From an uncultured Clostridia bacterium (GTDB lineage Bacteria > Bacillota > Clostridia > Christensenellales > Aristaeellaceae), in contig CAMVEB010000009.1 of the NCBI GenBank assembly GCA_947166385.1, positions 62,001-126,000 of the forward strand: 64,000 bases of DNA. Direction: 5' to 3'. The notes under the pieces are model-generated. The model had not been told where the DNA came from, made no database searches, and was given only the letters and a program-made list of their open reading frames with translations. Below, one piece after another: positions 326-27,574 of the stretch. The translations under genes were made by a program, and so were the position numbers. Every line of letters starts with the position of its first letter. The first letter of the stretch is position 1.

Positions 326-1504
326 ATGAAAAAGATTATTGCTCTGGTTCTGGCTCTTGTGCTGTGTCTGACCGCGGTGAGCGTGATGGCGGAAGGCGCC
401 AAGGTGAAGGTTGGTTTCATCTTCCTGCATGATGAAAACTCCACTTATGACCTGAACTTCATCAACGCCGCCAAGGCCGCCGCTGAAAAGCTCGGCGTGG
501 AATATGTGGTGAAGACCAATGTCGGCGAGAGTGAAGCCTGCTATGAAACAGCAGCGGACCTGGCAGACAGCGGATGCAACATCATCTTTGCTGACAGCTT
601 CGGCCATGAAGACTACATGATCCAGGCTGCGAAGGAATATCCGGACGTGCAGTTTTGCCATGCGACCGGCACCAAGGCCCATACCGAAGGTCTGGCCAAC
701 TTCCACAATGCTTTCGCCAGCATTTATGAAGGCCGTTTCCTGGGCGGCATCGCCGCGGGCCTGAAGCTGAACCAGATGATCGAAGAAGGCAAGATCACCC
801 CCGAAGAAGCGAAGCTGGGCTACATCGGCGCTTATACCTACGCGGAAGTGATTTCCGGCTACACCTCCTTCTTCCTGGGCGCCCGGAGCGTTTGCCCCAC
901 CGCCACGATGGAAGTGACCTTCACCGGTTCCTGGTATGATCCCGCGCTGGAGCAGGAAGGCGCCATCAAGCTGATCAACGACAAGTGCGTCGTGATCTCT
1001 GAGCATGCCGACTCCATGGGCGCTCCCTCCGAGTGCGAGAAGAACAATATCCCCTTCGTCTTCTACAACGGTTCCGCCGCGGATGCCTGCCCGAACACCT
1101 ACATCGTGGCCAGCCGCATCAACTGGGAGCCCTACTTTGAGCTGATCATCAACGCCGTGGCCAACGGAACCGAGATTCCCGCGGACTATACCGGCACCCT
1201 CGCGACGGACGGCGTTGTGCTGGCTGAGCTGAATGAACAGGCAGCCGCTCCCGGAACCGCTGAAGCGATTGAAGAAGCGAAAGCCAAGATGCTGAGCGGT
1301 GAGCTGAAGGTGTTCGATACCGCGGCCTTCACGAAGGACGGAGCGAAGCTGGAAAGCTATCTGGCTGACGTGGATACCGATCCCGCCTACACTCCGGACA
1401 CCGAAGTGATTTCCGACGGATACTTCCATGAATCCGAGTTCCGCAGCGCTCCCTATTTCGATCTGCAGATCGACGGGATCACCCTGCTGGACACCAAGTT
1501 CTGA
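326..1504 (+). CDS. BMP family ABC transporter substrate-binding lipoprotein (PnrA/BmpA-like, nucleoside)
   Basis: ATG at 326 after GGAGG; signal peptide; KVGFIFLHDENSTYDLNF; downstream ATPase and two permeases. Confidence 0.85.
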   Translation: MKKIIALVLALVLCLTAVSVMAEGAKVKVGFIFLHDENSTYDLNFINAAKAAAEKLGVEYVVKTNVGESEACYETAADLADSGCNIIFADSFGHEDYMIQAAKEYPDVQFCHATGTKAHTEGLANFHNAFASIYEGRFLGGIAAGLKLNQMIEEGKITPEEAKLGYIGAYTYAEVISGYTSFFLGARSVCPTATMEVTFTGSWYDPALEQEGAIKLINDKCVVISEHADSMGAPSECEKNNIPFVFYNGSAADACPNTYIVASRINWEPYFELIINAVANGTEIPADYTGTLATDGVVLAELNEQAAAPGTAEAIEEAKAKMLSGELKVFDTAAFTKDGAKLESYLADVDTDPAYTPDTEVISDGYFHESEFRSAPYFDLQIDGITLLDTKF

Positions 1505-1556
1505 TCCTGAAAAATAAGGAAAGGGTCCCGGTCTGCGGCTGGGACCCTTCCTCTCA

Positions 1557-1611
1557 TTTTTCCGCAAAGGGCAGAGCAGCGGGAAGGGCTGCTTTGCCCT
1601 TTGCGGAAAAA
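1557..1611. other. Long near-perfect inverted repeat between the binding-protein gene and its ATPase gene
   Basis: TTTTTCCGCAAAGGGCAgAGCAGC...GCTGCTtTGCCCTTTGCGGAAAAA. Confidence 0.75.
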
Positions 1612-1645
1612 CCACAATGAGACTGACAGAGCGGAGGATAATTGC

Positions 1646-3178
1646 TTGAATACATCGGTTGCGGTGGAAATGCGGAATATCAGCAAACGATTCGGAACTG
1701 TTCAGGCGAATCAGGACGTTTCCCTGGATATCCGGCGCGGGGAAATCCTGGCGCTGCTGGGGGAGAACGGCAGCGGCAAGACCACGCTGATGAACATGCT
1801 GGCCGGGATCTACTTTCCGGACAGCGGGACCATCTCTGTAAACGGGGAGCCGGCGGTGATTGCTTCCCCGAAGGAAGCCTTTGAACTGGGGATCGGAATG
1901 ATTCACCAGCATTTTAAGCTGGTGGACGTTTTGAGCGCGGCGGAGAACATCGTGCTGGGCCTGGAAGGGAAACTGGACCTGAAGAGCGCTGTGAAAAAGA
2001 TTCGGGAAATTTGTGACGCCTACGGCTTTGACGTGAATCCGAGCCAGAAGATATATGATATGTCCGTTTCCCAGAAGCAGACGGTGGAGATTGTCAAAGT
2101 GCTGTACCGCGGAGCGGATATCCTGATCCTGGACGAGCCCACCGCCGTGCTGACGCCGCAGGAAACAGACAAGCTGTTCGCCGTTCTGCGGAATATGCGG
2201 GACGACGGGAAAGCCATCGTGATCATCACGCACAAGCTGAATGAAGTGCAGACCCTGTCTGACAAGGTGGCGGTACTCCGTGGAGGCAGATATATCGGCA
2301 CGCTGATCACGAAGGATACGAACGCCCAGGAAATGACCGATATGATGGTCGGACGCGCGGTGTCGCTGAATATTGACCGGCCTGATCCTGTGGATCCGCA
2401 GCTGCGGCTGGAGATCCGCGACCTGACGGTACGGAATGAGGAAGGCCTGCTGAAACTGGATCACGTTTCCTTTGACGCAAACAGCGGGGAGATCCTCGGA
2501 ATCGCCGGCATCTCCGGCGCGGGGCAGAAAGAACTGCTGGAAGCAATTTACGGTCTGCAAGGTACGGAAGAGGGAACGGTGATTTTCCATGATCCGGAAA
2601 CGAACAAGGCGATCGACCTGAAATACAAAACACCGATGCAGATCCGGCAGCTGGGCGTGTCCCTGAGCTTCGTACCGGAAGACCGGCTGGGCATGGGCCT
2701 GGTCGGCAGTATGGACATTACGGACAACATGATGCTGCGCAGCTACCGAAGCGGCCCGCACGGATTTTTGAACCGGAAAGCCCCGAAGAGTATGGCCAGG
2801 TGGATCATCCGGGAGCTGGAAATCTCCACACCCGGGACGACGACGCCGGTCCGTCGGCTGTCCGGCGGCAATGTGCAGAAGGTTCTGGTCGGCCGGGAAA
2901 TCGCCCAGACGCCCAAAGTGCTGATGATGGCATATCCGGTACGCGGACTGGATATCAACTCTTCCTACACAATCTATCAGCTGATGAACCTGCAGAAAGA
3001 AAAAGGAGTTGCCGTGATCTTTGTGGGTGAGGACCTGGACGTGCTGATGGAACTGTGCGACCGGATCCTGGTGCTGTGCGCCGGAAAGGTCAGCGGAATG
3101 GTGGACGGGCGGAAAGCGGACAAACAGAAGATCGGGATGATGATGACCCGAGTGGGAGGTGAACAGGATGGCGAATAA
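1646..3178 (+). CDS. Nucleoside/sugar ABC transporter ATP-binding protein (two ABC domains)
   Basis: TTG start with GGAGG 8 nt upstream; Walker A GENGSGKTT, Walker B LILDEPTAVLTPQE; second ABC domain with SGGNVQKVLVGRE. Confidence 0.85.
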   Translation: MNTSVAVEMRNISKRFGTVQANQDVSLDIRRGEILALLGENGSGKTTLMNMLAGIYFPDSGTISVNGEPAVIASPKEAFELGIGMIHQHFKLVDVLSAAENIVLGLEGKLDLKSAVKKIREICDAYGFDVNPSQKIYDMSVSQKQTVEIVKVLYRGADILILDEPTAVLTPQETDKLFAVLRNMRDDGKAIVIITHKLNEVQTLSDKVAVLRGGRYIGTLITKDTNAQEMTDMMVGRAVSLNIDRPDPVDPQLRLEIRDLTVRNEEGLLKLDHVSFDANSGEILGIAGISGAGQKELLEAIYGLQGTEEGTVIFHDPETNKAIDLKYKTPMQIRQLGVSLSFVPEDRLGMGLVGSMDITDNMMLRSYRSGPHGFLNRKAPKSMARWIIRELEISTPGTTTPVRRLSGGNVQKVLVGREIAQTPKVLMMAYPVRGLDINSSYTIYQLMNLQKEKGVAVIFVGEDLDVLMELCDRILVLCAGKVSGMVDGRKADKQKIGMMMTRVGGEQDGE

Positions 3179-4280
3179 GTTGAAAGAGCCGCTGATCCAT
3201 ATCTCCCGGAGGAGCGTGCTGCCCTGGTATCAGAGCTGGGGAATCCGCGCGGGCGCGGTGATCCTGTCCCTGGGCGTCTGCGCGCTGGTGACCATGCTGA
3301 CGACCGGCGAAAACCCCTTCAGTGTGTTCGGGGCGATTTATGACGCTTCCTTTTCCACCCAGCGCCGCACCTGGGTGCTGTTCCAGAATATCGCGATGCT
3401 GCTGAGCGTGTCGCTGGCGGTTGTTCCGGCGTTCCGGATGCGCTTCTGGAATCTGGGCGGTGAAGGCCAGATGCTGGCCGGCGGCCTGGCGTCCACGGCC
3501 TGCATGATCTGCCTGCGCGATGTGCTGCCCAATGCTGTGCTGATCCCGGTGATCGTTGTCTGCAGCATTGCCGCCGGAGCGATCTGGGGCATGATCCCCG
3601 CGCTCTTTAAGGCGAAGTGGGGAACGAATGAAACGCTGTTCACCCTGATGATGAACTATATCGCCATCCAGCTGGTTTCCTTCTTCATTATTGTCTGGGA
3701 AATGCCCAAGGGCGCCGGCCAGATCGGCATTATCAACCAGAACACGGAGATCGGCTGGCTGCCGGCGATCGGGGGGCAGAAATACCTGCTGAATATTATC
3801 GTTGTGGCGGTCCTGACAGCGGCCATGTATGTCTATATGAACTATTCCAAGCAGGGATATGAGATCTCCGTGGTCGGCGAGAGCGTGCGCACAGCCCGGT
3901 ATGTCGGCATCAAGGTGGAACGGGTCATCGTCCGGACGATGATTATTTCCGGCGCGCTCTGCGGCCTGACCGGTATGCTGCTGGTCAGCGGCACCGATCA
4001 TACCCTGACCACCACGATCACCGGAGGCCGGGGCTTTACGGCGGTGCTGGTGGCCTGGATGGCCAAATTTAACCCGGTCTGGATGATCCTGACGTCTTTC
4101 CTGCTGGTCTTCCTGGACAAGGGCGCCGGCGATATTACGACGAAGTTCGGGCTGAACAGGTCCTTTTCGGATATCCTGACGGGGATTATCCTGTTCTTCA
4201 TCATTGGCAGCGAATTCTTTATCAATTACCGGATCAGCTTCCGTCATTCAGCAAAGAAGGGGGAAACGGATCATGTTTGA
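3168..4280 (+). CDS. ABC transporter permease (nucleoside type)
   Basis: Multi-TM protein; overlaps ATPase stop; BPD_transp_2-like; GGEGQMLAGG motif. Confidence 0.82.
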   Translation: MANKLKEPLIHISRRSVLPWYQSWGIRAGAVILSLGVCALVTMLTTGENPFSVFGAIYDASFSTQRRTWVLFQNIAMLLSVSLAVVPAFRMRFWNLGGEGQMLAGGLASTACMICLRDVLPNAVLIPVIVVCSIAAGAIWGMIPALFKAKWGTNETLFTLMMNYIAIQLVSFFIIVWEMPKGAGQIGIINQNTEIGWLPAIGGQKYLLNIIVVAVLTAAMYVYMNYSKQGYEISVVGESVRTARYVGIKVERVIVRTMIISGALCGLTGMLLVSGTDHTLTTTITGGRGFTAVLVAWMAKFNPVWMILTSFLLVFLDKGAGDITTKFGLNRSFSDILTGIILFFIIGSEFFINYRISFRHSAKKGETDHV

Positions 4281-14541: not shown

Positions 14542-15426
14542 ATGGCCGGTAAAAAGAAAAAGAAAAAAAGCCATCGGGTATCGAACCTGATTCTTGTCCT
14601 GATTCTGCTGATCGGTATCGGCATTGTGGCCTATCCTTCCTTCAGCGAATACTGGAACAGTATGCATCAGTCCCGGGCTATTATGGGATACGTGGAACGC
14701 GTCGCGGAGATGAGCAACGAAGAATACAACGCCATTCTGGACGCGGCGGTTGAATTCAACCGGGAACTGCCGGAGCGCCCGAACCAGTGGGCGATGGATG
14801 ACGAATACCTGGACAACTACGAGTCCCAGCTGAACTTTGACGGCACGGGAAACATGGGATTCATCTCTATTCCGAAGATCGATGTCAACCTGCCGATCTA
14901 TCACGGAACCAGTGATGCCGTGCTGCAGACGTCCATCGGCCATATTACCGGCACTTCGCTGCCGGTCGGCAGCACCTTCCCGGAGGACGATTACAAACAC
15001 CCGGATTATGCTTCCCACTGTGTGCTCAGCGGACACCGGGGACTTCCCAGCGCGAAGCTTTTCAGCGATCTGGACGCGATGGAAGTCGGAGATGTGTTCT
15101 ATCTGACCAACCTGGATCAGACGCAGACCTATATGGTGGACAAGATTACCGTTATTGTACCGGAGGACAGCTCGGAGCTGACCATTGTCCCCGGAAAAGA
15201 CTACTGCACGCTGATGACCTGTACCCCTTACGGCATCAATACCCATCGTCTTCTTGTCAGAGGGATCCGGGTTGAGAACGAGCGGGAACTGCTGGATGTC
15301 CGTATCACTGCGGACGCGCTGCGGATTAAGCCGATCCATGTGGCGCCGTTTATCGCTGTCCCTGTATTGATTCTCATGGTCTTCTGGGTGCTGATCATGA
15401 CCAGCGGGCGCTCCAAAAAACGGTGA
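14542..15426 (+). CDS. Class C sortase (pilin-type)
   Basis: GFISIPKIDVNLPIYHGT; VLSGHRGLP (His); TLMTCTPYGINTHRLLVRG (Cys/Arg); C-terminal TM. Confidence 0.9.
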   Translation: MAGKKKKKKSHRVSNLILVLILLIGIGIVAYPSFSEYWNSMHQSRAIMGYVERVAEMSNEEYNAILDAAVEFNRELPERPNQWAMDDEYLDNYESQLNFDGTGNMGFISIPKIDVNLPIYHGTSDAVLQTSIGHITGTSLPVGSTFPEDDYKHPDYASHCVLSGHRGLPSAKLFSDLDAMEVGDVFYLTNLDQTQTYMVDKITVIVPEDSSELTIVPGKDYCTLMTCTPYGINTHRLLVRGIRVENERELLDVRITADALRIKPIHVAPFIAVPVLILMVFWVLIMTSGRSKKR

Positions 15427-15627: not shown

Positions 15628-17394
15628 ATGAAGGAATGGATGAAGAAAAAGAGCTGGCTGCGTCGCCTGATTGCTCTGACGGCGGCATGTTGCATGATGT
15701 TTTCTTCCGGAGGATTGATGGCCTTCGCGGAAGCTGCCGGCCCTGAAACAGTACGAGTGCTGGACTGCGACAGGGAGGAGGATCTGGCTGTCAGAAAGGT
15801 CTGGACATCTGAACCTTTCGACCAGCATCCGACGCATACGCATTCAGCGTCCTGCTACGGACCGGAAGGGAAGCTCGTCTGCGGATATGCCGAGGGCAAG
15901 TACTATCATGTCCATAATGAATGGTGCTACAATGAGAACGGTGAACTGGCCTGCGGGCTGGAAGAGCGTCAGCATCATGTTCATACGGACGCCTGCAGAG
16001 ATGAAGAACAGAATCTGATCTGCGGCAAAATCGGATACCATGTTCACAGTTCCTCTTGCTGGGACGGCAACATTGCCATCTGCGGAGAAACCGAACTTCC
16101 TGAATATGTTTCCAGCGAAGCAAACTGGGTGGAAGAAGAATACACGATCCCCCACGTCCATGACGAATCCTGCTACAAGGAAGTAGAAGTTCCCGCGGAG
16201 GAGCCGGAACCGGAGCAGGAGGAAGAGCCTCAGGATCCGGAAACGCCCGATCCCGAAACCGAGATTCCGGACGAAAGCAAAGATCCGGAGACCGACATTC
16301 CCGAAGCGACGGATAAAAAAGACAATCATACAGAAGAACCCCAGAAGTCGGAAGAAGACGAAACGGAACCCCCTGAGGAAGGGATAAAGCAAGAAACCGA
16401 TCAGGCCGATGAGGCGGCGACGGAAAAGCCGGAAGAAGAAAAGAAAGAACCCGAACAGGCAGAAGAAGCAACCGAAACGGAAGAACAGGCCAAAGCACCG
16501 GAGAAGGAAGACAGCACGGAAACGCCTGCGGAAGAAATCAAGACCGATCCGGAAGAAACAATTGATGCCGCGGATGAAGTTCCGGGCGAAGAGCCGACAG
16601 AGTCTGATGAGACAGAACCTGAGGATCCCACGGAAGAAGAACCGGAAGAGCTGACTGATCCCGAAACCGAACAACCTGCCGAAGAACAGCCGCAGGAAAC
16701 TGCCACAGAGCCGGAAACCCAGCCGGAAGAAACGGTTCAGGATACTACGGTTGAAGAACCGGCAGAGGAGTCGACGGAGGAAGCGGCAGAAGAACTGACA
16801 GACGAACAGGCAGTGGAGCAGACGGAACTTTCTGAAGAGGAAACTGCTGAAGAACCTGCGGAAGACGAGAATCCGGAAGACGCAGAAGAACCGGAGGTCC
16901 ATCCTGAAGAGGAAGAGGAACCGGCCAAAGTCTGGGAGAATGAAGAGCTCAACGAGGAAAATCCACCGGCATTCTTTACCGGAAAGATGACATTCAAGGG
17001 CAAAGGCTTTAAAGTCATCGTTCATGTCGGAGAAGACGCGCAGCTGCCCGCGGATGTCGAACTGCGGGCGGAAGAAATTCTCCCCGGCACCGCCCAGTAC
17101 AATGAGCTGGCAGGAATTGCGGAAGACCGGTTGACAGATGACTGGAGCAAGTTGGGCAAAACCAGGTTCTTTGATATCGCGTTCCTTGTGGACGGTGAGG
17201 AGATCGAACCGGCAGAAAACGCCAAGGTGGATGTCCAGATCCTGTTTGACAAAGCGTTCGAAGTTTCCGAGGACAAGGAACTGCAGGCACTGCACTTTGA
17301 TGATACCGGCAATCCCAGCGAGGTTGATCTTCAGAAGCAGACCAATCCGGACGAGCAAGTCGACGCGGTGTCATTCTCGTCAGACAGTTTCTAA
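15628..17394 (+). CDS. Truncated surface protein: signal peptide, HxH...C repeats, Glu/Pro-rich linker, conserved adhesin module; no LPXTG
   Basis: Signal peptide; repeats HTHSASCY/HVHNEWCY/HVHTDAC/HVHSSSCW/HVHDESCY; 3' part paralogous to 17637 ORF. Confidence 0.75.
   Translation: MKEWMKKKSWLRRLIALTAACCMMFSSGGLMAFAEAAGPETVRVLDCDREEDLAVRKVWTSEPFDQHPTHTHSASCYGPEGKLVCGYAEGKYYHVHNEWCYNENGELACGLEERQHHVHTDACRDEEQNLICGKIGYHVHSSSCWDGNIAICGETELPEYVSSEANWVEEEYTIPHVHDESCYKEVEVPAEEPEPEQEEEPQDPETPDPETEIPDESKDPETDIPEATDKKDNHTEEPQKSEEDETEPPEEGIKQETDQADEAATEKPEEEKKEPEQAEEATETEEQAKAPEKEDSTETPAEEIKTDPEETIDAADEVPGEEPTESDETEPEDPTEEEPEELTDPETEQPAEEQPQETATEPETQPEETVQDTTVEEPAEESTEEAAEELTDEQAVEQTELSEEETAEEPAEDENPEDAEEPEVHPEEEEEPAKVWENEELNEENPPAFFTGKMTFKGKGFKVIVHVGEDAQLPADVELRAEEILPGTAQYNELAGIAEDRLTDDWSKLGKTRFFDIAFLVDGEEIEPAENAKVDVQILFDKAFEVSEDKELQALHFDDTGNPSEVDLQKQTNPDEQVDAVSFSSDSF
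15834..16176 (+). repeat. Five tandem HxH-x3-C-x(7-9)-CG-type protein repeats
   Basis: Direct reading of the translated sequence. Confidence 0.85.
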
Positions 17395-17442: not shown

Positions 17443-17472
17443 GGGCTGATTCCTATGGGGATCAGCCTTTTT
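17443..17472 (+). terminator. Rho-independent terminator after truncated surface protein
   Basis: GGCTGATTC..GGATCAGCC-TTTTT. Confidence 0.7.
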
Positions 17473-17484
17473 GTTACTTGCAGC

Positions 17485-17513
17485 TTGAAAGATGAGAGGG
17501 AATCATGTATAAT
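17485..17513 (+). promoter_or_regulatory. Sigma-70-type promoter upstream of giant adhesin
   Basis: TTGAAA-17 nt-TATAAT. Confidence 0.75.
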
Positions 17514-17636: not shown

Positions 17637-19775
17637 ATGAAAAACCGGATAACGAAAAAAGGCTGGCTGCGGCGTCTTGTTTCCCTGCTGACAGTGTTTT
17701 CCATGATTTTTGCTTCCGGCGGGACAGCTGCTTTCGCTGATATTTCCGCGGGCGAGCAGATCAAAGTATGGGGAAATGAACAGTCGGTTGAAGGTCATCC
17801 GTCTGAATTCTTTTTCGGTGATATAACATATATTGGAAGCGATTTCAAAGTAATCGCACATATCGGCGCTGACGCGCAGCTGCCCGCGGATGTCGAGCTG
17901 CAGGTAGAAGAAATATTACCGGATACTGAACAATACCGGGAACTGGCAGGGATTGCGGAAGATCAGCTGACAGATGACTGGAGCCAGCTGGGACTAACAA
18001 GATTCTTTGACATCGCCTTTGTTTCGAACGGCGTAGAAATCGAACCGGCAAAAAACGCCAAGGTAGATGTCCAGATTCTGTTTGACAATGCATTCGAGGT
18101 TTCTGAAAACAAGGAACTGCAGGCGCTGCACTTTGATGAGTCCGGCAATCCAAGCAAAGTGGAGATCCAGGAGCAGACCAATTTGGAGGAGCAGATTGAC
18201 TCGATTCTTTTCTCCTCGGACAGTTTCTCCGTATTCGGCGTGATGGAAATCGAGCAGATCATCACCAAGACGATCAAGAACTACTCCGCAACCTACCGGG
18301 TCATGGTTACCTACGGAGAAAATGCCGGTATTCCCGCCGGTTCTACCCTGCAGGTCCGGGAAATCAAATCCGATTCGGATGAATATCCGCTATACGCCAA
18401 CCAGACAGCCGCCGCGCTGAGGGCTCCAGAAGACGCGACCGAGCTGTTCGGGCTTTATGATATTTCCATCATCACACCTGAGGGGGAGAAGATCCAGCCG
18501 AACGAGGAAGTGAATGTTTCGATTTACCTGATCCAGGAAGAGACGCTGGGACAGGTGGAAGATCTGAAGGTGGTCCACTTTACCGACGATATTAACCAAT
18601 CCGGCCTGGACGCGGAGCTGATCACAGAAGAATCCAAGGCGGTGATTCCTACCCTGGAAGTCGAAGCGGAAGTTATTACCCCCGAAGTGCAGGGCCAGAG
18701 CGTGATCTTTGAGACAGTTCCGGATCAGAACATGGAACCGGCAAAACAGGAAGAAGAGGGGACAGAGGTCAGCTTTGGCACTGATGGATTTTCTGTGTTC
18801 GCGATTGCCTATACGGTAGATTTTGAATATGTCGACGAACAGAATGAAACCCATACCTGGTCCTTCCCAGGCACAGGAAGCGTGAAACTGTCGGATATGC
18901 TCAAAGTGCTGGGTATCGTAGACATGGAAGAAGAGGATGCTACTATCGAATCAGCTTCTCTCAGCGATCCAACTCTGGGTGAGGATGGCATATATGATGC
19001 CCATGACCTATATCTGGAACAGGTGGAAGACGAATGGTACATCAAGAGCGAGAATCCGTTTGACGATACCTATACGCTGACGGTTATCCTTTTGAAAAAT
19101 GATGAAAACGCGACAAACAGAAAAACGTTTACTGTGACGGTGACAGATGGTGCAGGGGATAATAATCACACAGTCATTATTCAAGTTGATAGTGGTGTAA
19201 ATTTGGGTGGGCTTTATGTTGTCCTTAAGCAAGAACAGGCATCAACACCTCAGGGTCCTGCAGATCAATTCTATGTCGGAGAAATAAATGTCAGTGGTGG
19301 GACGCTGCAAGCTTCAACATTTAAAGCGGTATATAATGGGGTAACTGATAATCCATATGATCATAATACACCTGTTACTGCTATGGTTGCTGTTAACACT
19401 AATGGGATGAATCAAACGATTGATGAATACACTTTGATTTACAACCCAGACAGTGTTACTTATATTGATGAAATCAAAGGTAAAGCGATTCTTGTCTCTA
19501 CAGATAACGATACACAAACAACAACTGTCAGGATCGGCGGAACGATATCTTATACTGCATCCCTAAGTTATATTGACCAAACCGGTGGTCATTCTGTTCC
19601 TGGTTGGACGGGATGTATTCTTCAAGGTTGTGATAATTCTGGTGGTATCTATTCTGCAGACCTCACTAATAGTAAGCTAATATTTGATTATAATGGTGAT
19701 GAAACAATTCCGAAGATTACATCTTGGAAGTTGATAGACAATGAAGGTAGAGAAAAAAAACAATTCGAAGCATAG
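17637..19775 (+). CDS. Giant surface adhesin, N-terminal fragment (same gene as 19799 ORF if -1 slip at 19753-19760)
   Basis: Signal peptide MKNRITKKGWLRRLVSLLTVFSMIFASGGTAAFA; frame 0 ends 15 nt after an A8 run; -1 frame continues homologous-looking sequence. Confidence 0.8.
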   Translation: MKNRITKKGWLRRLVSLLTVFSMIFASGGTAAFADISAGEQIKVWGNEQSVEGHPSEFFFGDITYIGSDFKVIAHIGADAQLPADVELQVEEILPDTEQYRELAGIAEDQLTDDWSQLGLTRFFDIAFVSNGVEIEPAKNAKVDVQILFDNAFEVSENKELQALHFDESGNPSKVEIQEQTNLEEQIDSILFSSDSFSVFGVMEIEQIITKTIKNYSATYRVMVTYGENAGIPAGSTLQVREIKSDSDEYPLYANQTAAALRAPEDATELFGLYDISIITPEGEKIQPNEEVNVSIYLIQEETLGQVEDLKVVHFTDDINQSGLDAELITEESKAVIPTLEVEAEVITPEVQGQSVIFETVPDQNMEPAKQEEEGTEVSFGTDGFSVFAIAYTVDFEYVDEQNETHTWSFPGTGSVKLSDMLKVLGIVDMEEEDATIESASLSDPTLGEDGIYDAHDLYLEQVEDEWYIKSENPFDDTYTLTVILLKNDENATNRKTFTVTVTDGAGDNNHTVIIQVDSGVNLGGLYVVLKQEQASTPQGPADQFYVGEINVSGGTLQASTFKAVYNGVTDNPYDHNTPVTAMVAVNTNGMNQTIDEYTLIYNPDSVTYIDEIKGKAILVSTDNDTQTTTVRIGGTISYTASLSYIDQTGGHSVPGWTGCILQGCDNSGGIYSADLTNSKLIFDYNGDETIPKITSWKLIDNEGREKKQFEA

Positions 19776-19798
19776 ACGGAAATTTTGAGCTCACTGCT

Positions 19799-22700
19799 AT
19801 GCCGAAAATAGAGACAGTATCCACAGAATCTGGCATTACGAAGAATTATTCATTCACAGCAATCCGCTATCAATTCTGTGGTCTTTCCCTTGAAGGTGTA
19901 GAAACGAACAGTATAGATAACAAATATTATGTGTTGGTTAAGCAGGAAGATGAATACAAACATTATGCCCGATTGAATAATCTTTCGGATCTCAGAAATA
20001 CTGATGGTCAATATAGAGTACCGAACGATATTAAAGGCTCTACGGGTTATGAGTTTGAAATCGTGTACAGGAATAGCGACACGATGCCTAGTAACATTGA
20101 TGAGCTAAAATATGAACCAAAAATGTTGGATGGTTGTTGCATAGCAATTAATAATATTCCTTACATCATTTCCTTCCCGACACAGGCAACAACAAAAAAT
20201 AATTATGTTTTTGCCGCCACACCAGCCCCCCAATACAGTGCTACATTCAGTTTCATGCAAGAAGACGGAGTCACTCCTGTCGAAAACCTTGTACTGACAG
20301 ATACATATTATGCACTGATTGCAACAAACAACAGGTATTCTTTATCTGAAAGCCCAATCAATTTCAGTCAGCTCTCTTCTTTGGTAACTTCTACTTCGGT
20401 ATCTTTTGTTCATTTTTATGGAAGCAATGGCAACGATCTGGGCAGCTTACGCTATTCCGGAGATCCTATTCAGAACATCTGGCTGGTGAGCGTTCCTAAT
20501 GGAAACAGTGTACCGACGGTTAGCGAAGCAGTAAATCAGCTTGGCAGCGATAGGAAGAAAGAACTGACGAATTCGACCGTTTGGAACGGCTATGGACTGA
20601 CGTCTTCTTTTACTACCGGTGAATGGAACGGCGTATTCACCAAAATGCCAAGTTACACTGCGAATATTCAGTTTGTTGATTCGGATGGCAGCACACCAAT
20701 TGACGATCCTGAATTGTTGGGGACTTACTACTATCTTGTGAAAGCCAACATTGGCAGTGAGCGGTATGCGGTTTCGACTGAGCATGTTGATTTTAGAGGA
20801 ACAACACCGGGCACATTTGAAGCATTCTATGATCGGAACGATCAAAACGAACAAAGCCCGGTATCTTCCGTTTATTCCGGTACTCCGATTACGCAAGCCT
20901 GGTTGGTTTCAACGAATCAAAGTGGTAAAAGACCTAACGTTTGGGAAGCAGCAAATGGTCAAAACGGTGTAACACAATATGACGTATCTTCCGGTGCTAT
21001 TTTTGCTGAGAGATTTACTCTGAGCGGTGTTCCAGATCAGACAAATCAAGCCAACTACCTGATTACAGCAACCCGTATGCCTTCTTATCAGATCATCTCA
21101 AGCTTTGTTGATGGTACGGGTCCTGTTCCGAAGGCACTGAGTAAGGGATACTATCTGGCAGCGAAGGCATCTATTAATGGATCTGAATATTATTACATTG
21201 ATACTTATGATCCTGCCAGAGAGTACGAGATCACCCATTTTTATACTGAACCGGACTTAAATGGATCAGGAAATCAGTATAACGGGAAAACAGCGTATGT
21301 GAATGATAGCGCAGTTGTAGTGTATCTGGTTGAACAGAGCAATGTTTCCAGCGTGGATGATGTCAAAAATGCTACTGATGATAATAAGATCAGTTACGGA
21401 ACAGTGGAAATTTACACACTGGCGCAGACTCCTGGAACAAACCAGACCAGTCTGACCTTCACAAAGAACGCCGAGACAGAAACCTACGCAACGATAATCA
21501 AGTTTTTTACCGAGAACGCCGAAATCATTGAAGCTGCGGGCGATATCGGCATGCATGTGAACGAGGCAAATAGTACCAAGAAGGCGCCTTCGCTGAGCAA
21601 GCATTACTATGTGGTGGCCACGCTGATAAACAAGACAGATAAGAGTATCGCGGGCTGGGCAATCAATCCTGTGACTCCGAGCGGCCATGCGGAGACATCC
21701 ACCTACTTCTCGGAATTTATTCCGTTTGGCGCGGATGGTTCGACGACCACTGGGACAAAGATTCCTTTCTCTTCCTCCGATGATTTCCCGTATGACATCA
21801 CTACCCGTCTGTACAGGACGGACTCTGCCCTGTCGATCCGCACCTATAAAGCCCTGGTCACAGATAAGACGAATAGCGCGACCGACAGCGCCGAGGACGG
21901 ATATGAATTCGTCGGGAACTGGAATCCCGATGCCACCCACAATGAGATTCATCTGAAAGAAGCGTCGGCTAAGACCTACGCCGTGCGTGTTCGCTTTAAG
22001 GCCAGTGATGTTTCAAAGCTTGCTGCGTTTGGAACTGGAGCAAATGAGTATTTTGTTGTCAATGTGATTGTTACTCATGCGGATTCTTCTCAAAGTGTCC
22101 AATACGACAGAATTCAGATTTCTGCTTCGGATATTTCCCAATTGCATGTTGATGAGGAAGGATATTACTATAAAGAATTCCCATTTGCCTATTGGAGAGC
22201 GACAAATGGCGGCTATTATGTAAAAGATGATACAAAGCCCAATCCCAAATTTACCGGTAATGAGCAGAATATCAAAGTTGAACTGGTAAAGAGTTCTGAT
22301 AATAACAATTATGCTTTCAATAACTATGAAAGTGAAAACTCCATCAAATACACCGAAGGAACATCTGCGGGTTCCTATGTAGTTCACTATGATACGCGGT
22401 GGACGAATCCCCAGAACACCCTTTCCAAGTTCCATGAGGAGCTCGATGGTACCGGTGTTATCAAGTGCTATGATCTCATCGATCTGATTCCGCCCATTGC
22501 GGATAGTGAATATGATTACTCCACTATTCTGGGACCCAATTACAGCTATGGTATTGTGGCTGATCACCTGTTCCAGAACAATGACCTGCAGACAAACTTT
22601 GCCGTGAACCATTACACTGGCCATGGTGACTTTATAACCCCGGACTTGTCCAATACGTCAGGTACGATTGTTATAGGCGAGTTTAATCGCAATACCGATG

Positions 22701-25700
22701 TGATGAGTACGAACCATGTGGGTCCTGCTGTGGATCCGGCCTCCACCGACGGAGAGGATATAAAAGCAGGTACGATTCCCCTGGGAAATACCATTCTTGG
22801 TTCACTGGCAATCTATGCGGACGATGACAGTGGTTCCCGGTACGAAACCTATGGAATTGATGGCGGGACACCGGTGGCTTTTGAACGGGATAATGTTCAT
22901 GTGAGTTTGCAGAACGGTGCGAGTCTCCAGAGTCAGATCGTCAATCCGGGCATTCAGTACGGTATCAATATGTCCCGGACATTGGCGGCTAAAAGCGCGA
23001 CATATACACCTGAGATCCGCAGTGGGAAACCTTATGTGATTACTACAGGATTCCCGGATAACGCAACCATTTATATTGATGCAGATGCCCTGCTTTCTGG
23101 CAGTGGTGAACAACCAGATGATGTCTATGGGACTCTCTATGTGCTCGACCAACTTCACATCGAAAAGAATCCCGGTCAAATGCTGATCTTCAACTTCAAT
23201 AAAACCAAAAATGTCAAACTGAAGCAGTTCCATGTAAAATATGAAGAAAGTTACTTTGATACCCAAACCACGACAAGCCATAGCGATATAAATGTAAAGA
23301 TGGAGGATATCTCCAAGCATATTGTATGGAACTTTGCCAGCTGTACCGGGCGCGTGGAACTGAGCGAAGTTGGCGGTATCTGCCTGCAACCGAATTACGG
23401 ATCGGAAACGCAGATTTCCGGTACCAGCGGCGGCTGGCTGGTGAGCGCCGGCTATGTATTCAACAGTGACGCGGAGTGGCACAACTTCTTCCAGGAAGTT
23501 CCGGTGAGTACCGAAGTCAATCTGAATCTGCTGAAGACGGTGGACGATCTGGTGCCGGGCGGCGGAGATGTGTTCAGTTTTGAGTTGTATGAGTACAAAA
23601 TCGGAATGGCTTGGCCTGAAACTCCTTTAGCATCAACAAAGAACGTACGCAGCAGTATTAAGTTCAACATTAAGGATAAGGCTGATACATCTGAGGAGAA
23701 CAGAAAACTGACGCCCGGCTGGCATATCTATAAAATTGTTGAAGATCCAACAATACCTGTTGGGAACACGACAAACAATCAGTATATCTTCGATCCGACG
23801 ATATATTATGCCGCCGTGCGGGTGACTCAGGTCGGTGAAACTGTGATCGCGGGAATGCCGATGTATTTCAGTGATTTCAATCCCGCATTATTTAATCTGA
23901 CTGCTGTTGAAAACGTCAATAAACCTGCAGCACTGACCGGTGATCTGGTTTCTGTTACCTTTAAAAATGAAGTCAAGAAGGAAGGCCTGACGATCCAGAA
24001 AACTGTGGAAGGAACGGACAGCAGCAAGGTTTCATTTACTTTCAAGATCAAGGCGTGGCAAGGCGAAACAGGCTCGACTACGGCGCTAAGTGGATCCGCA
24101 ACAGACTATTCTGTTTCCGGCCTGCCCGGCACAACGAAGATTACTCTTACGCCGGCAGGGGAGACAGGCAATCAGTGGAGCGAAGGTACCCTGAATCTGA
24201 AAAACGGGCAAACAGCTACCATTACAAATCTTCCCATCGGAAGCCACTATGAAATCACAGAGACACATGTCGGCGGGACAGAAATCACCTATACCGATGT
24301 GAATCCAAATCCTGTGATGGGTTATACACCGCAGACCGGATCACGGACTGGTATTATTCCAGATGGTGGCATAAAAGAAGCTTTTGTCAATAAATATCAA
24401 GCCTCCGGCAAAACGACGCTGTATGTTCATAAGGCGCTGAAAAATTCTACGGCTACGCTTCCGTCGAATGCTTACGGCTTCGAACTATATCAGGTGGGAG
24501 GCGGCAAGATCGGCGAGACGCAATACAATGATGACAACGGCAATGTCACGTTTGGCCCGCTTATCTATACGGAAGCCGATCTGGAAGGCGCGGTCGTGAA
24601 CCCGTACACGGGCAAACGCGTAAAGGTGCTCTCATACCGTGTCCATGAAGTCAACGGTTCTCTGGCCAAAGAGACATTTGATTACAGCCAGTACATCAAC
24701 GACAGCGATAAGCTTGTTGTGGTGAACCTGACGGATAACGGTGACGGTACGATTACGGCTGCGACCTTCCCCGCGGACGCTACCTTCCGGTTTAATAACG
24801 AGAAGGCGATTCAGGTTGTGCTGGAAGGTTCCAAGATTCTGACTGGCCGCGATATGAAAGCTGGCGAGGTGTTCCGGTTTGTTGCAAAGGAAGATGGAAC
24901 TACCGTTGCTACTGCCAGTGTCACAGGCGCGCGGGACAGCGAGGAAGTTCAGTTCAGATTTACGCCCATCAAGTATACGGAAGCAGGGACTCATGAATAC
25001 ACGATCACCGAAGTTCAGGGAACGGATGATAAGCTGAATTATGACAACACAACAAGCTATACCGCTACTGTGACAGTGGAAAACAACGAAGGCAAATTAT
25101 CCGCAACAATCACATATGACGAAAAGAAGCCTTTCATCAATACGAGCAAGGAAACAAAAAGCGCCTCCGTTGAGAAAGTCTGGTCCGACGGGAATCAGAA
25201 TCATTCCAATGACCGCGTGAAGGTAAAACTGTATAAGGCGTACGGCAATCCCGTGGAGCAAGCTCCCACAGGGACGGAGCCTGTTCCCTATATCGGTACT
25301 GGGACGGATACCACGGAAACGGGCGGAATATCTATCAGCAGACCTGGTACAGATTATCTGCCTGCGGATGCTGAGACGATTACCGGTACCGAAGTCATGC
25401 TCAGCAGGGCAAACGGCTGGAAGCATGTCTGGTCCAAGCTGCCGACGATGGAAAATGATGGTGGAACTTGGAAGTACGTCAACTACTATCCTGTTGAAGT
25501 CTGGTCTTCGAACGCCAACATTGTTACCACAGCTTATGACCACAACACTCAAATCAACAAGGTCACCATTACGAACACCGTGGCAAGCAAAGGCGCTCTG
25601 AAGCTGACCAAAGCGGTCACGGTAAACGGTCAGACACCGAATGCCGGGCAACAGAATTTGACGAACGGCACCTATTCATTCGAGATCAGGAAGGTAGGCG

Positions 25701-27574
25701 TTGATACGGTCATTCACACGGTTGCTATTACCTATGCGGGCGGAGCGATAACCGGAGCTACGCTGGACGGTCAAACAATTGCGCTGTCCGGTAGTTATGT
25801 GGTCGTTACCAATCTGAATGAGGGAGACTATACCATCACAGAAACGGCAGTCAGCGGCATGACCACTACAGCCAGCGGCGGAACTGGCAACAGCTCTACG
25901 AACACGATCACTGTCCATGTCACAGCAGGTGATATGGCGGCTGATCAGGCTACCGCTCAGGCCATCTTCACCAACAATAAGCCGTATACAACCGTTGCGT
26001 TTAGGGCAAAAAAGACGCTGCAGGGCGCAGAACTTGCGAACAGAGCCTTCAGCTTTGCGCTAACAGAGTATACGGACGCCAGTTTTAAAACAGTCAAGAG
26101 CGGCGGCGTAGAACAGAGTAAAACGAATTTCGCTCCGGTATCTCCCGCCATCTACGGCGAGATACTGTTTGACGATGTAGATATCATCAGCGCTGGTACC
26201 CGCTATTTCAAAATCAGTGAAACAATTCCCACCGGGGAAGGTGCTGATGGTACCATCATTTATGATACAATGGAATATAACATCACCGTGACTGTGACAG
26301 CTGACAGCAATGGCAATCTGACGGCAACCAAGAGTCGCGGTGCTGTGGATGGTTATGATGCCAGCTTCGCGAACATAAAGACCGGTAGCCTGAAGATCAC
26401 AAAGACATTGAAGATCAATGAAGCTGATCTGACAACGGGTGTTGATGGAACCCAAAACCTGGCGGATGGCATATTCACCTTTGAAGTCTGGAAAGGGGAT
26501 GGCTCCGCAAAGGCCACGGATAAGGATGGTGTCGAAATTCCGGAGGTGACCATTACAGTCACTGATGGAACGTCATCCCCGGCGGAACAGAGCGTCAGCA
26601 ACCTGCGGCCGGGCAGTTACCTGATCGTTGAAAAAAGTGCAAGCAACAATTTCACCTTGTTCAATAACAGTGCGGCCTTGACCACGGCAAACGGAAAGAC
26701 AGGCATTCTGGTCACGGTGAACGCAGGTGATGTGGGAGGCATTCCCACTGCGGCTTTCGTAAACAATAAGAACATGGGCAAGATCAGTGTAACCAAGACA
26801 GTGACAGGTATTACGGATGAAAGCATCCTTCAGAATACCACATACACCTTTACCATCTCCCGCACCGGTATGACAGATGTAACTCTGAATGTGAAAAATG
26901 GAGAAACCAAAACCACCGGCTGGCTGGAACTGGGTGACTACACCGTCACGGAAGCATCACAGTCGATCGCGGGCTACGATATTGATACCGCAAATACCTT
27001 CTCGACCCAGAATGTAACGCTGACAACAGAACACAGGACACAGGCACTCAATATCGCGGCCACTAACACATATATCAAGACCACCAACATCACTGTAAAG
27101 AAGGTCAAGAACGACACGACTGAACCGCTGTCCGGTGCGACATTCAAGCTTTACCGGGTGACAACCGTAGAAGTTACAGCAACCGATGGAGGCGAACCCA
27201 CTACAAGCACTGTTGAAACTCCGTATCCTAACGAAGCGGACTCTCAGAAGACAACGAACGTCAACGGAACAATACAGTTCGCGAACCTGATTGACGGCAA
27301 TTACAAGATCGTTGAGACCCAGCCGCCAGCAGGATATAACGCATTGACACAAGCGATTGAATTCAGCATCACAAACGGTGTGGTGACGTATTCACAGGGT
27401 AGCACGGTGACTTATGATCCCAATACGAAGACGTTTACGGTTCCTAACACCCCCGGTGTCGAACTCCCGGCTACCGGCGGATCCGGTACGCTGCTGTATA
27501 CCATCGGGGGCATGACGCTGATCCTGCTGGCAGCAGGGGTGCTGCTGGCGGGTCGGAAGCGGAGAAAGGTATGA
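19799..27574 (+). CDS. Giant LPXTG surface adhesin, remainder: divergent tandem repeats, SpaA/Cna-B-type domains, LPATG anchor
   Basis: VEKVWSDGNQNHSNDRVKVKLYKA (Cna-B-like), SGATFKLY..PPAGYN (SpaA-like), C-term ELPATGGSGTLLYTIGGMTLILLAAGVLLAGRKRRKV; frame open upstream to 19751. Confidence 0.88.
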   Translation: MPKIETVSTESGITKNYSFTAIRYQFCGLSLEGVETNSIDNKYYVLVKQEDEYKHYARLNNLSDLRNTDGQYRVPNDIKGSTGYEFEIVYRNSDTMPSNIDELKYEPKMLDGCCIAINNIPYIISFPTQATTKNNYVFAATPAPQYSATFSFMQEDGVTPVENLVLTDTYYALIATNNRYSLSESPINFSQLSSLVTSTSVSFVHFYGSNGNDLGSLRYSGDPIQNIWLVSVPNGNSVPTVSEAVNQLGSDRKKELTNSTVWNGYGLTSSFTTGEWNGVFTKMPSYTANIQFVDSDGSTPIDDPELLGTYYYLVKANIGSERYAVSTEHVDFRGTTPGTFEAFYDRNDQNEQSPVSSVYSGTPITQAWLVSTNQSGKRPNVWEAANGQNGVTQYDVSSGAIFAERFTLSGVPDQTNQANYLITATRMPSYQIISSFVDGTGPVPKALSKGYYLAAKASINGSEYYYIDTYDPAREYEITHFYTEPDLNGSGNQYNGKTAYVNDSAVVVYLVEQSNVSSVDDVKNATDDNKISYGTVEIYTLAQTPGTNQTSLTFTKNAETETYATIIKFFTENAEIIEAAGDIGMHVNEANSTKKAPSLSKHYYVVATLINKTDKSIAGWAINPVTPSGHAETSTYFSEFIPFGADGSTTTGTKIPFSSSDDFPYDITTRLYRTDSALSIRTYKALVTDKTNSATDSAEDGYEFVGNWNPDATHNEIHLKEASAKTYAVRVRFKASDVSKLAAFGTGANEYFVVNVIVTHADSSQSVQYDRIQISASDISQLHVDEEGYYYKEFPFAYWRATNGGYYVKDDTKPNPKFTGNEQNIKVELVKSSDNNNYAFNNYESENSIKYTEGTSAGSYVVHYDTRWTNPQNTLSKFHEELDGTGVIKCYDLIDLIPPIADSEYDYSTILGPNYSYGIVADHLFQNNDLQTNFAVNHYTGHGDFITPDLSNTSGTIVIGEFNRNTDVMSTNHVGPAVDPASTDGEDIKAGTIPLGNTILGSLAIYADDDSGSRYETYGIDGGTPVAFERDNVHVSLQNGASLQSQIVNPGIQYGINMSRTLAAKSATYTPEIRSGKPYVITTGFPDNATIYIDADALLSGSGEQPDDVYGTLYVLDQLHIEKNPGQMLIFNFNKTKNVKLKQFHVKYEESYFDTQTTTSHSDINVKMEDISKHIVWNFASCTGRVELSEVGGICLQPNYGSETQISGTSGGWLVSAGYVFNSDAEWHNFFQEVPVSTEVNLNLLKTVDDLVPGGGDVFSFELYEYKIGMAWPETPLASTKNVRSSIKFNIKDKADTSEENRKLTPGWHIYKIVEDPTIPVGNTTNNQYIFDPTIYYAAVRVTQVGETVIAGMPMYFSDFNPALFNLTAVENVNKPAALTGDLVSVTFKNEVKKEGLTIQKTVEGTDSSKVSFTFKIKAWQGETGSTTALSGSATDYSVSGLPGTTKITLTPAGETGNQWSEGTLNLKNGQTATITNLPIGSHYEITETHVGGTEITYTDVNPNPVMGYTPQTGSRTGIIPDGGIKEAFVNKYQASGKTTLYVHKALKNSTATLPSNAYGFELYQVGGGKIGETQYNDDNGNVTFGPLIYTEADLEGAVVNPYTGKRVKVLSYRVHEVNGSLAKETFDYSQYINDSDKLVVVNLTDNGDGTITAATFPADATFRFNNEKAIQVVLEGSKILTGRDMKAGEVFRFVAKEDGTTVATASVTGARDSEEVQFRFTPIKYTEAGTHEYTITEVQGTDDKLNYDNTTSYTATVTVENNEGKLSATITYDEKKPFINTSKETKSASVEKVWSDGNQNHSNDRVKVKLYKAYGNPVEQAPTGTEPVPYIGTGTDTTETGGISISRPGTDYLPADAETITGTEVMLSRANGWKHVWSKLPTMENDGGTWKYVNYYPVEVWSSNANIVTTAYDHNTQINKVTITNTVASKGALKLTKAVTVNGQTPNAGQQNLTNGTYSFEIRKVGVDTVIHTVAITYAGGAITGATLDGQTIALSGSYVVVTNLNEGDYTITETAVSGMTTTASGGTGNSSTNTITVHVTAGDMAADQATAQAIFTNNKPYTTVAFRAKKTLQGAELANRAFSFALTEYTDASFKTVKSGGVEQSKTNFAPVSPAIYGEILFDDVDIISAGTRYFKISETIPTGEGADGTIIYDTMEYNITVTVTADSNGNLTATKSRGAVDGYDASFANIKTGSLKITKTLKINEADLTTGVDGTQNLADGIFTFEVWKGDGSAKATDKDGVEIPEVTITVTDGTSSPAEQSVSNLRPGSYLIVEKSASNNFTLFNNSAALTTANGKTGILVTVNAGDVGGIPTAAFVNNKNMGKISVTKTVTGITDESILQNTTYTFTISRTGMTDVTLNVKNGETKTTGWLELGDYTVTEASQSIAGYDIDTANTFSTQNVTLTTEHRTQALNIAATNTYIKTTNITVKKVKNDTTEPLSGATFKLYRVTTVEVTATDGGEPTTSTVETPYPNEADSQKTTNVNGTIQFANLIDGNYKIVETQPPAGYNALTQAIEFSITNGVVTYSQGSTVTYDPNTKTFTVPNTPGVELPATGGSGTLLYTIGGMTLILLAAGVLLAGRKRRKV

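Follow-up and report, generated by a model that had tools for sequence, protein, structure and literature searches.

A giant sortase-anchored adhesin gene in an uncultured Clostridia bacterium, split by one nucleotide at an A8 tract and probably inactivated by replication slippage

Organization of the adhesin locus

The window analyzed here, a 64-kb stretch of contig DNA, contains on its forward strand two overlapping open reading frames that carry the two parts of a giant adhesin. The N-terminal part, ORF1 (17637-19775), encodes 712 aa with a signal peptide, ends at a TAG at 19773, and is homologous to the N-termini of giant adhesins that relatives encode in single ORFs. A putative promoter of the adhesin, TTGAAA-17-TATAAT at 17485-17513, was found in a consensus scan (11/12 matches). 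The C-terminal part, ORF2 (19751-27574, ∼2,605 codons), contains FctA (2e-26) and SpaA-like isopeptide domains (SpaA, 9.7e-16; also TIGR03786), a DUF7601 domain and a C-terminal LPATG anchor that reads LPATGGSG and matches Gram_pos_anchor (PF00746, 3.2e-06) as well as TIGR01167. Both the sorting signal and the isopeptide/SpaA/FctA-type repeats of LPXTG pilin-like giant adhesins are thus present, and the joined frames would encode ∼3,317 aa, in agreement with the ∼3,300 aa of the preliminary description. In this assembly signal peptide and anchor are not in one frame, whereas in relatives they are. Consequently, as had been proposed, the N-terminal part would be secreted and unanchored unless the frame is shifted, the signal peptide lying in ORF1 and the LPATG motif in ORF2.

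The change of reading frame coincides with a run of eight A (A8) at 19753-19760, ∼21% into the gene. In the frame of ORF1 the run is read as GAA AAA AAA CAA, followed by the TAG at 19773. The frame of ORF2, after stops at 19742 and 19748 (TAG), stays open up to 27574. The one stretch in which neither frame is closed is thus 19751-19772, and since this interval holds the A8, the shift must occur within the A run or directly beside it; no other site is plausible. The window has only two A8 runs and no longer A run, and by our own estimate the chance of an A8 falling in an interval of ∼22 nt is roughly 1 in 1000. The AT-richness of the surroundings makes an A8 by chance more likely. The tract lies in a module of ∼37–45% G+C with atypical codon use (∼19237-20961, codon score near zero), most of which is without counterpart in the homologue of G283, a genome of a sister genus; there, residues 539-712 of ORF1 and 1-574 of ORF2 find no match. 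Downstream of the A8 the frame stays open for ∼2,600 codons, whose coding scores are normal once the AT-rich module is passed, as would be expected if inactivation were recent or reversible.

A sortase gene (14542-15426; PF04203, E = 1.3e-20) lies just upstream and precedes two adhesin genes, which suggests a dedicated sortase-adhesin locus. Between the sortase gene and the split adhesin lies a paralogous ORF for a secreted protein of 588 aa (15628-17394), homologous to the adhesin N-terminus with 79% DNA identity over 421 bp. It encodes a signal peptide, Cys/His repeats and a Glu-rich stretch, and stops at a TAA at a position where the adhesin gene continues with a sense codon; a second TAA, likewise replacing a sense codon, follows a few codons on, and a terminator lies at 17443-17468. 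This ORF has the appearance of a second giant adhesin gene cut down to its 5' part, or of a gene for a secreted protein derived from such an adhesin.

Single-gene ancestry of the two frames

When relatives were searched with ORF1 and ORF2 as separate queries, both halves were found in one uninterrupted ORF in three genomes of the same genus (G006, 3607 aa; G018, 3523 aa; G012, 2515 aa) and in two of a sister genus of the family (G273, 3696 aa; G283, 3754 aa). The G006 protein is matched by residues 63-504 of ORF1 and by residues 616-1808 of ORF2 together with the anchor. Residues 224-2325 of ORF2 match the G273 protein with 38% identity over 2,260 aligned positions, and in G283 residues 366-538 of ORF1 correspond to 1135-1292 and residues 575-2581 of ORF2 to 1254-3287.

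Two further relatives bear on the junction itself. In G036, a one-contig genome, an ORF of 6249 aa spans the junction region, with ORF1 481-690 aligned to 33-251 and ORF2 15-654 to 299-896; order is kept, spacing is similar, and the score is 167 against 94 for the best of 200 shuffles. In G001, the alignment of ORF1 residues 481-697 stops 8 codons short of the A run, with a score of 102 against at most 78 for shuffles. ORF2 residues 1-45 alone gave no significant alignment to G001, the best place being the expected one. Since ORF1 aligns nearly up to the A run in G001, and ORF2 from residue 15 continues in the same ORF in G036, a change of frame at this point is supported. Neither a scan of genome contigs nor searches of genus and family gave a further strain's copy of the junction or a closer one, and a profile-based scan for junction copies returned two relatives only, apparently already among those found.

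On these sequence comparisons ORF1 and ORF2 are the halves of one gene, as the preliminary description held when it proposed a single LPXTG adhesin split by one nucleotide. The outcome it had named as refuting, homologues encoded as two separate genes, was not found among the relatives compared, each of which has one ORF. Two genes with independent starts could in principle use the first ATG of the second frame, at 19799. That ATG has a weak Shine-Dalgarno (SD) sequence (-3.5 kcal/mol, against a strong -10.0 kcal/mol for ORF1), and the wall-anchored product would be without a signal peptide. Together with the single ORFs of relatives, these observations lead us to reject the two-gene reading as next to impossible.

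Several giant adhesin ORFs of the genus are cut by contig ends (G000:C49, L043; G001:C29, L072; G018:C34, L048; G004:C40, L076; G011:C42, L053; G010:C24, L077), mostly at a similar place, just ahead of the repeated isopeptide domains or within them, so that draft genomes yield too low a count of adhesins. G8 tracts were seen in two SD regions, one just 5' of a predicted secreted protein with an open frame of ∼970 codons (G000:C49:9217, L042) and one just 5' of the 3523-codon adhesin frame of G018 (C5, complementary strand; L054). Such tracts could vary translation through spacing.

Alternative accounts of the split

An intact gene misread in the A run by sequencing or assembly would account for a single-base difference within a homopolymer, in a 96-contig and probably metagenome-assembled genome, at a gene that is an intact single ORF in every clear relative. 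Short reads, though, seldom miscall an A8, and another giant adhesin of this genome is broken off by the end of a contig, which is typical of short-read assemblies at repeats. Moreover, the 1.55 Mb of this genome that were scanned hold 56 homopolymers of at least 8, many within intact long ORFs, and none but the adhesin A8 breaks a gene; the other runs between two long ORFs stand in what seem to be ordinary contexts, namely a gene boundary, a terminator, a promoter or an antisense frame. This result comes from a score-free screen, as a screen for split frames by codon score missed the adhesin owing to the atypical codon use of the module. General homopolymer miscalling in the assembly is thereby ruled out. 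A single local consensus error at the A8 is possible, and we regard an error as unlikely but deserving of serious weight. Programmed recoding, in which slippage by a set proportion of the ribosomes (-1, at A AAA AAA) or of the RNA polymerases would yield a secreted short and an anchored long form, is far less probable. The preliminary description had pointed to the slippery heptamer, and A AAA AAA does stand in frame at the overlap (19754-19760), with a 6-bp stem downstream after a 9-nt spacer; as a sign of recoding the heptamer has proved weak, since it occurs in frame 42 times in the 769 long ORFs of the genome and, being common in intact genes, says little by itself. An SD sequence stimulates -1 frameshifting at 9–14 nt and +1 frameshifting at 3 nt (review, PMC5009743), and the SD-like GAAGGTAGA lies ∼3 nt from the slip site, the +1 spacing. 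Neither an SD 9–14 nt upstream nor a distinctive downstream structure, the stimulators of -1 frameshifting, was found at the A8. An equally strong structure is present in 29% of the gene's 51-nt segments (579/1978) and in 8% of those inside the AT-rich module, and with longer contexts the fold is no more stable than those of shuffled sequences. Relatives have conserved neither the module that holds the slip site nor the two-ORF arrangement, the homologues being single ORFs. Programmed -1 frameshifting, which had been put forward for this site, was rejected on SD spacing, on hairpin significance (shuffles and the whole-gene scan) and on non-conservation. Low-level transcriptional slippage at the A8 is possible; many genomes show selection against it at a length of nine A or T (PMC1088944).

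The tract might also have been kept by selection as an evolved contingency locus for high-frequency ON/OFF switching of the adhesin. The gene encodes a surface adhesin with a sortase gene upstream, and it has the anatomy of Bifidobacterium breve pilins for which switching was shown (PMC9187656); A8 is, moreover, the tract length of the phase-variable vaa gene of a mycoplasma (PMC524362). A simple repeat does set the reading frame here, the A8 occupying the sole interval in which a switch could act. Against this, the A tract is not conserved, and relatives' adhesins are depleted in homopolymers: the 242 kb of long ORFs of the adhesin family contain one A8, that of this adhesin, and one G8, where ∼9 runs of at least 8 would be expected from synonymous codon use, and in relatives' long ORFs no A tract of eight or longer was found. 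Homopolymer enrichment, sought in the family as a sign of contingency selection, was absent, the runs falling below expectation, which argues against the tract as a selected switch. The genome encodes both MutS and MutL, so that slippage at the A8 should be lowered, and eight A are short for a contingency tract in a mismatch-repair background (compare inlA, A6 to A7, about 5.5e-7; PMC2831843). We consequently think it rather unlikely that selection has maintained the tract. The A8 itself probably came in with an exchanged module. A speculative extension, to which we give little credence, is that this uncultured, probably ruminant-gut Clostridia bacterium has in the adhesin a slippage-driven ON/OFF switch and received the A tract with a module acquired by horizontal transfer; it would then owe the switching to module exchange and not to lengthening of a native repeat.

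Proposed mechanism and comparison with known systems

The explanation we favor, with a confidence somewhat above even, is that, in the cell or population that was sequenced, a slippage indel in the A tract has turned the giant adhesin OFF, reversibly in principle. The locus would be a single sortase-anchored adhesin gene (17637-27574) with a one-nucleotide indel that most likely arose by slipped-strand mispairing in replication. As assembled, its product would be a secreted fragment of 712 aa that could not be anchored to the wall, and the anchor-bearing part of 2,591 aa would lack both a signal peptide and a good start site. The same slippage could revert the indel at a low rate, and the locus would thereby act as a weak ON/OFF switch. 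We infer a real indel of recent, replicative origin that the cells do not bypass efficiently. Inactivation of adhesin and pilin genes at homopolymers by replication slippage is documented (PMC9187656, PMC2831843, PMC524362), and on its sequence features the adhesin locus is a plausible candidate phase variant. Should tract length differ within the population, the known range of homopolymer phase variation in sortase-anchored surface proteins would extend to poorly studied gut Clostridia, and counting reads would provide a simple assay of in vivo selection on adhesion. Should it be constant, this would be an unremarkable case of inactivation or miscalling and a reason for caution in annotation.

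Among known systems, -1 programmed frameshifting of the dnaX type shares with this locus an A-rich slippery heptamer in frame at an overlap, but the A8 site has no correctly spaced SD, no distinctive hairpin and no conservation. The 5' poly(A) tract of Listeria monocytogenes inlA (PMC2831843) is likewise short and belongs to a surface adhesin gene of a Firmicute, which is inactivated when the tract changes by one base; that tract lies near codon 8 and is polymorphic among strains, whereas ours lies deep in the gene and is seen in one genome. The Mycoplasma hominis adhesin gene vaa likewise depends on poly(A) length, and according to PMC524362, which cites Zhang and Wise 1997, a tract of 8 is ON and one of 7 or 9 is OFF, with switching reported at 1e-3 to 1e-4; here the A8 state is the one out of frame. 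The closest anatomy is that of B. breve, in which two pilin precursors have signal peptide and LPXTG motif in different ORFs with a homopolymer between them, and replication slippage joins the two (PMC9187656). As in bbr_0113a/b and bbr_1889a/b of strain UCC2003 (PMC9187656), the adhesin described here has its signal peptide in a short ORF, its LPXTG motif in a large second ORF and a homopolymer between, and as in those pilins, surface proteins of a gut commensal, the second ORF is without a good start. The B. breve pilins differ in that the tract consists of G near the 5' end, that maximum-depth sequencing was used to examine switching and that pili were seen when the ORFs were in frame; the A8 lies well inside its gene. 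Set beside these systems, the split of the Clostridia adhesin seems to be an unexceptional slippage mutation that may act as an on/off switch of an established type; its mechanism would not be new.
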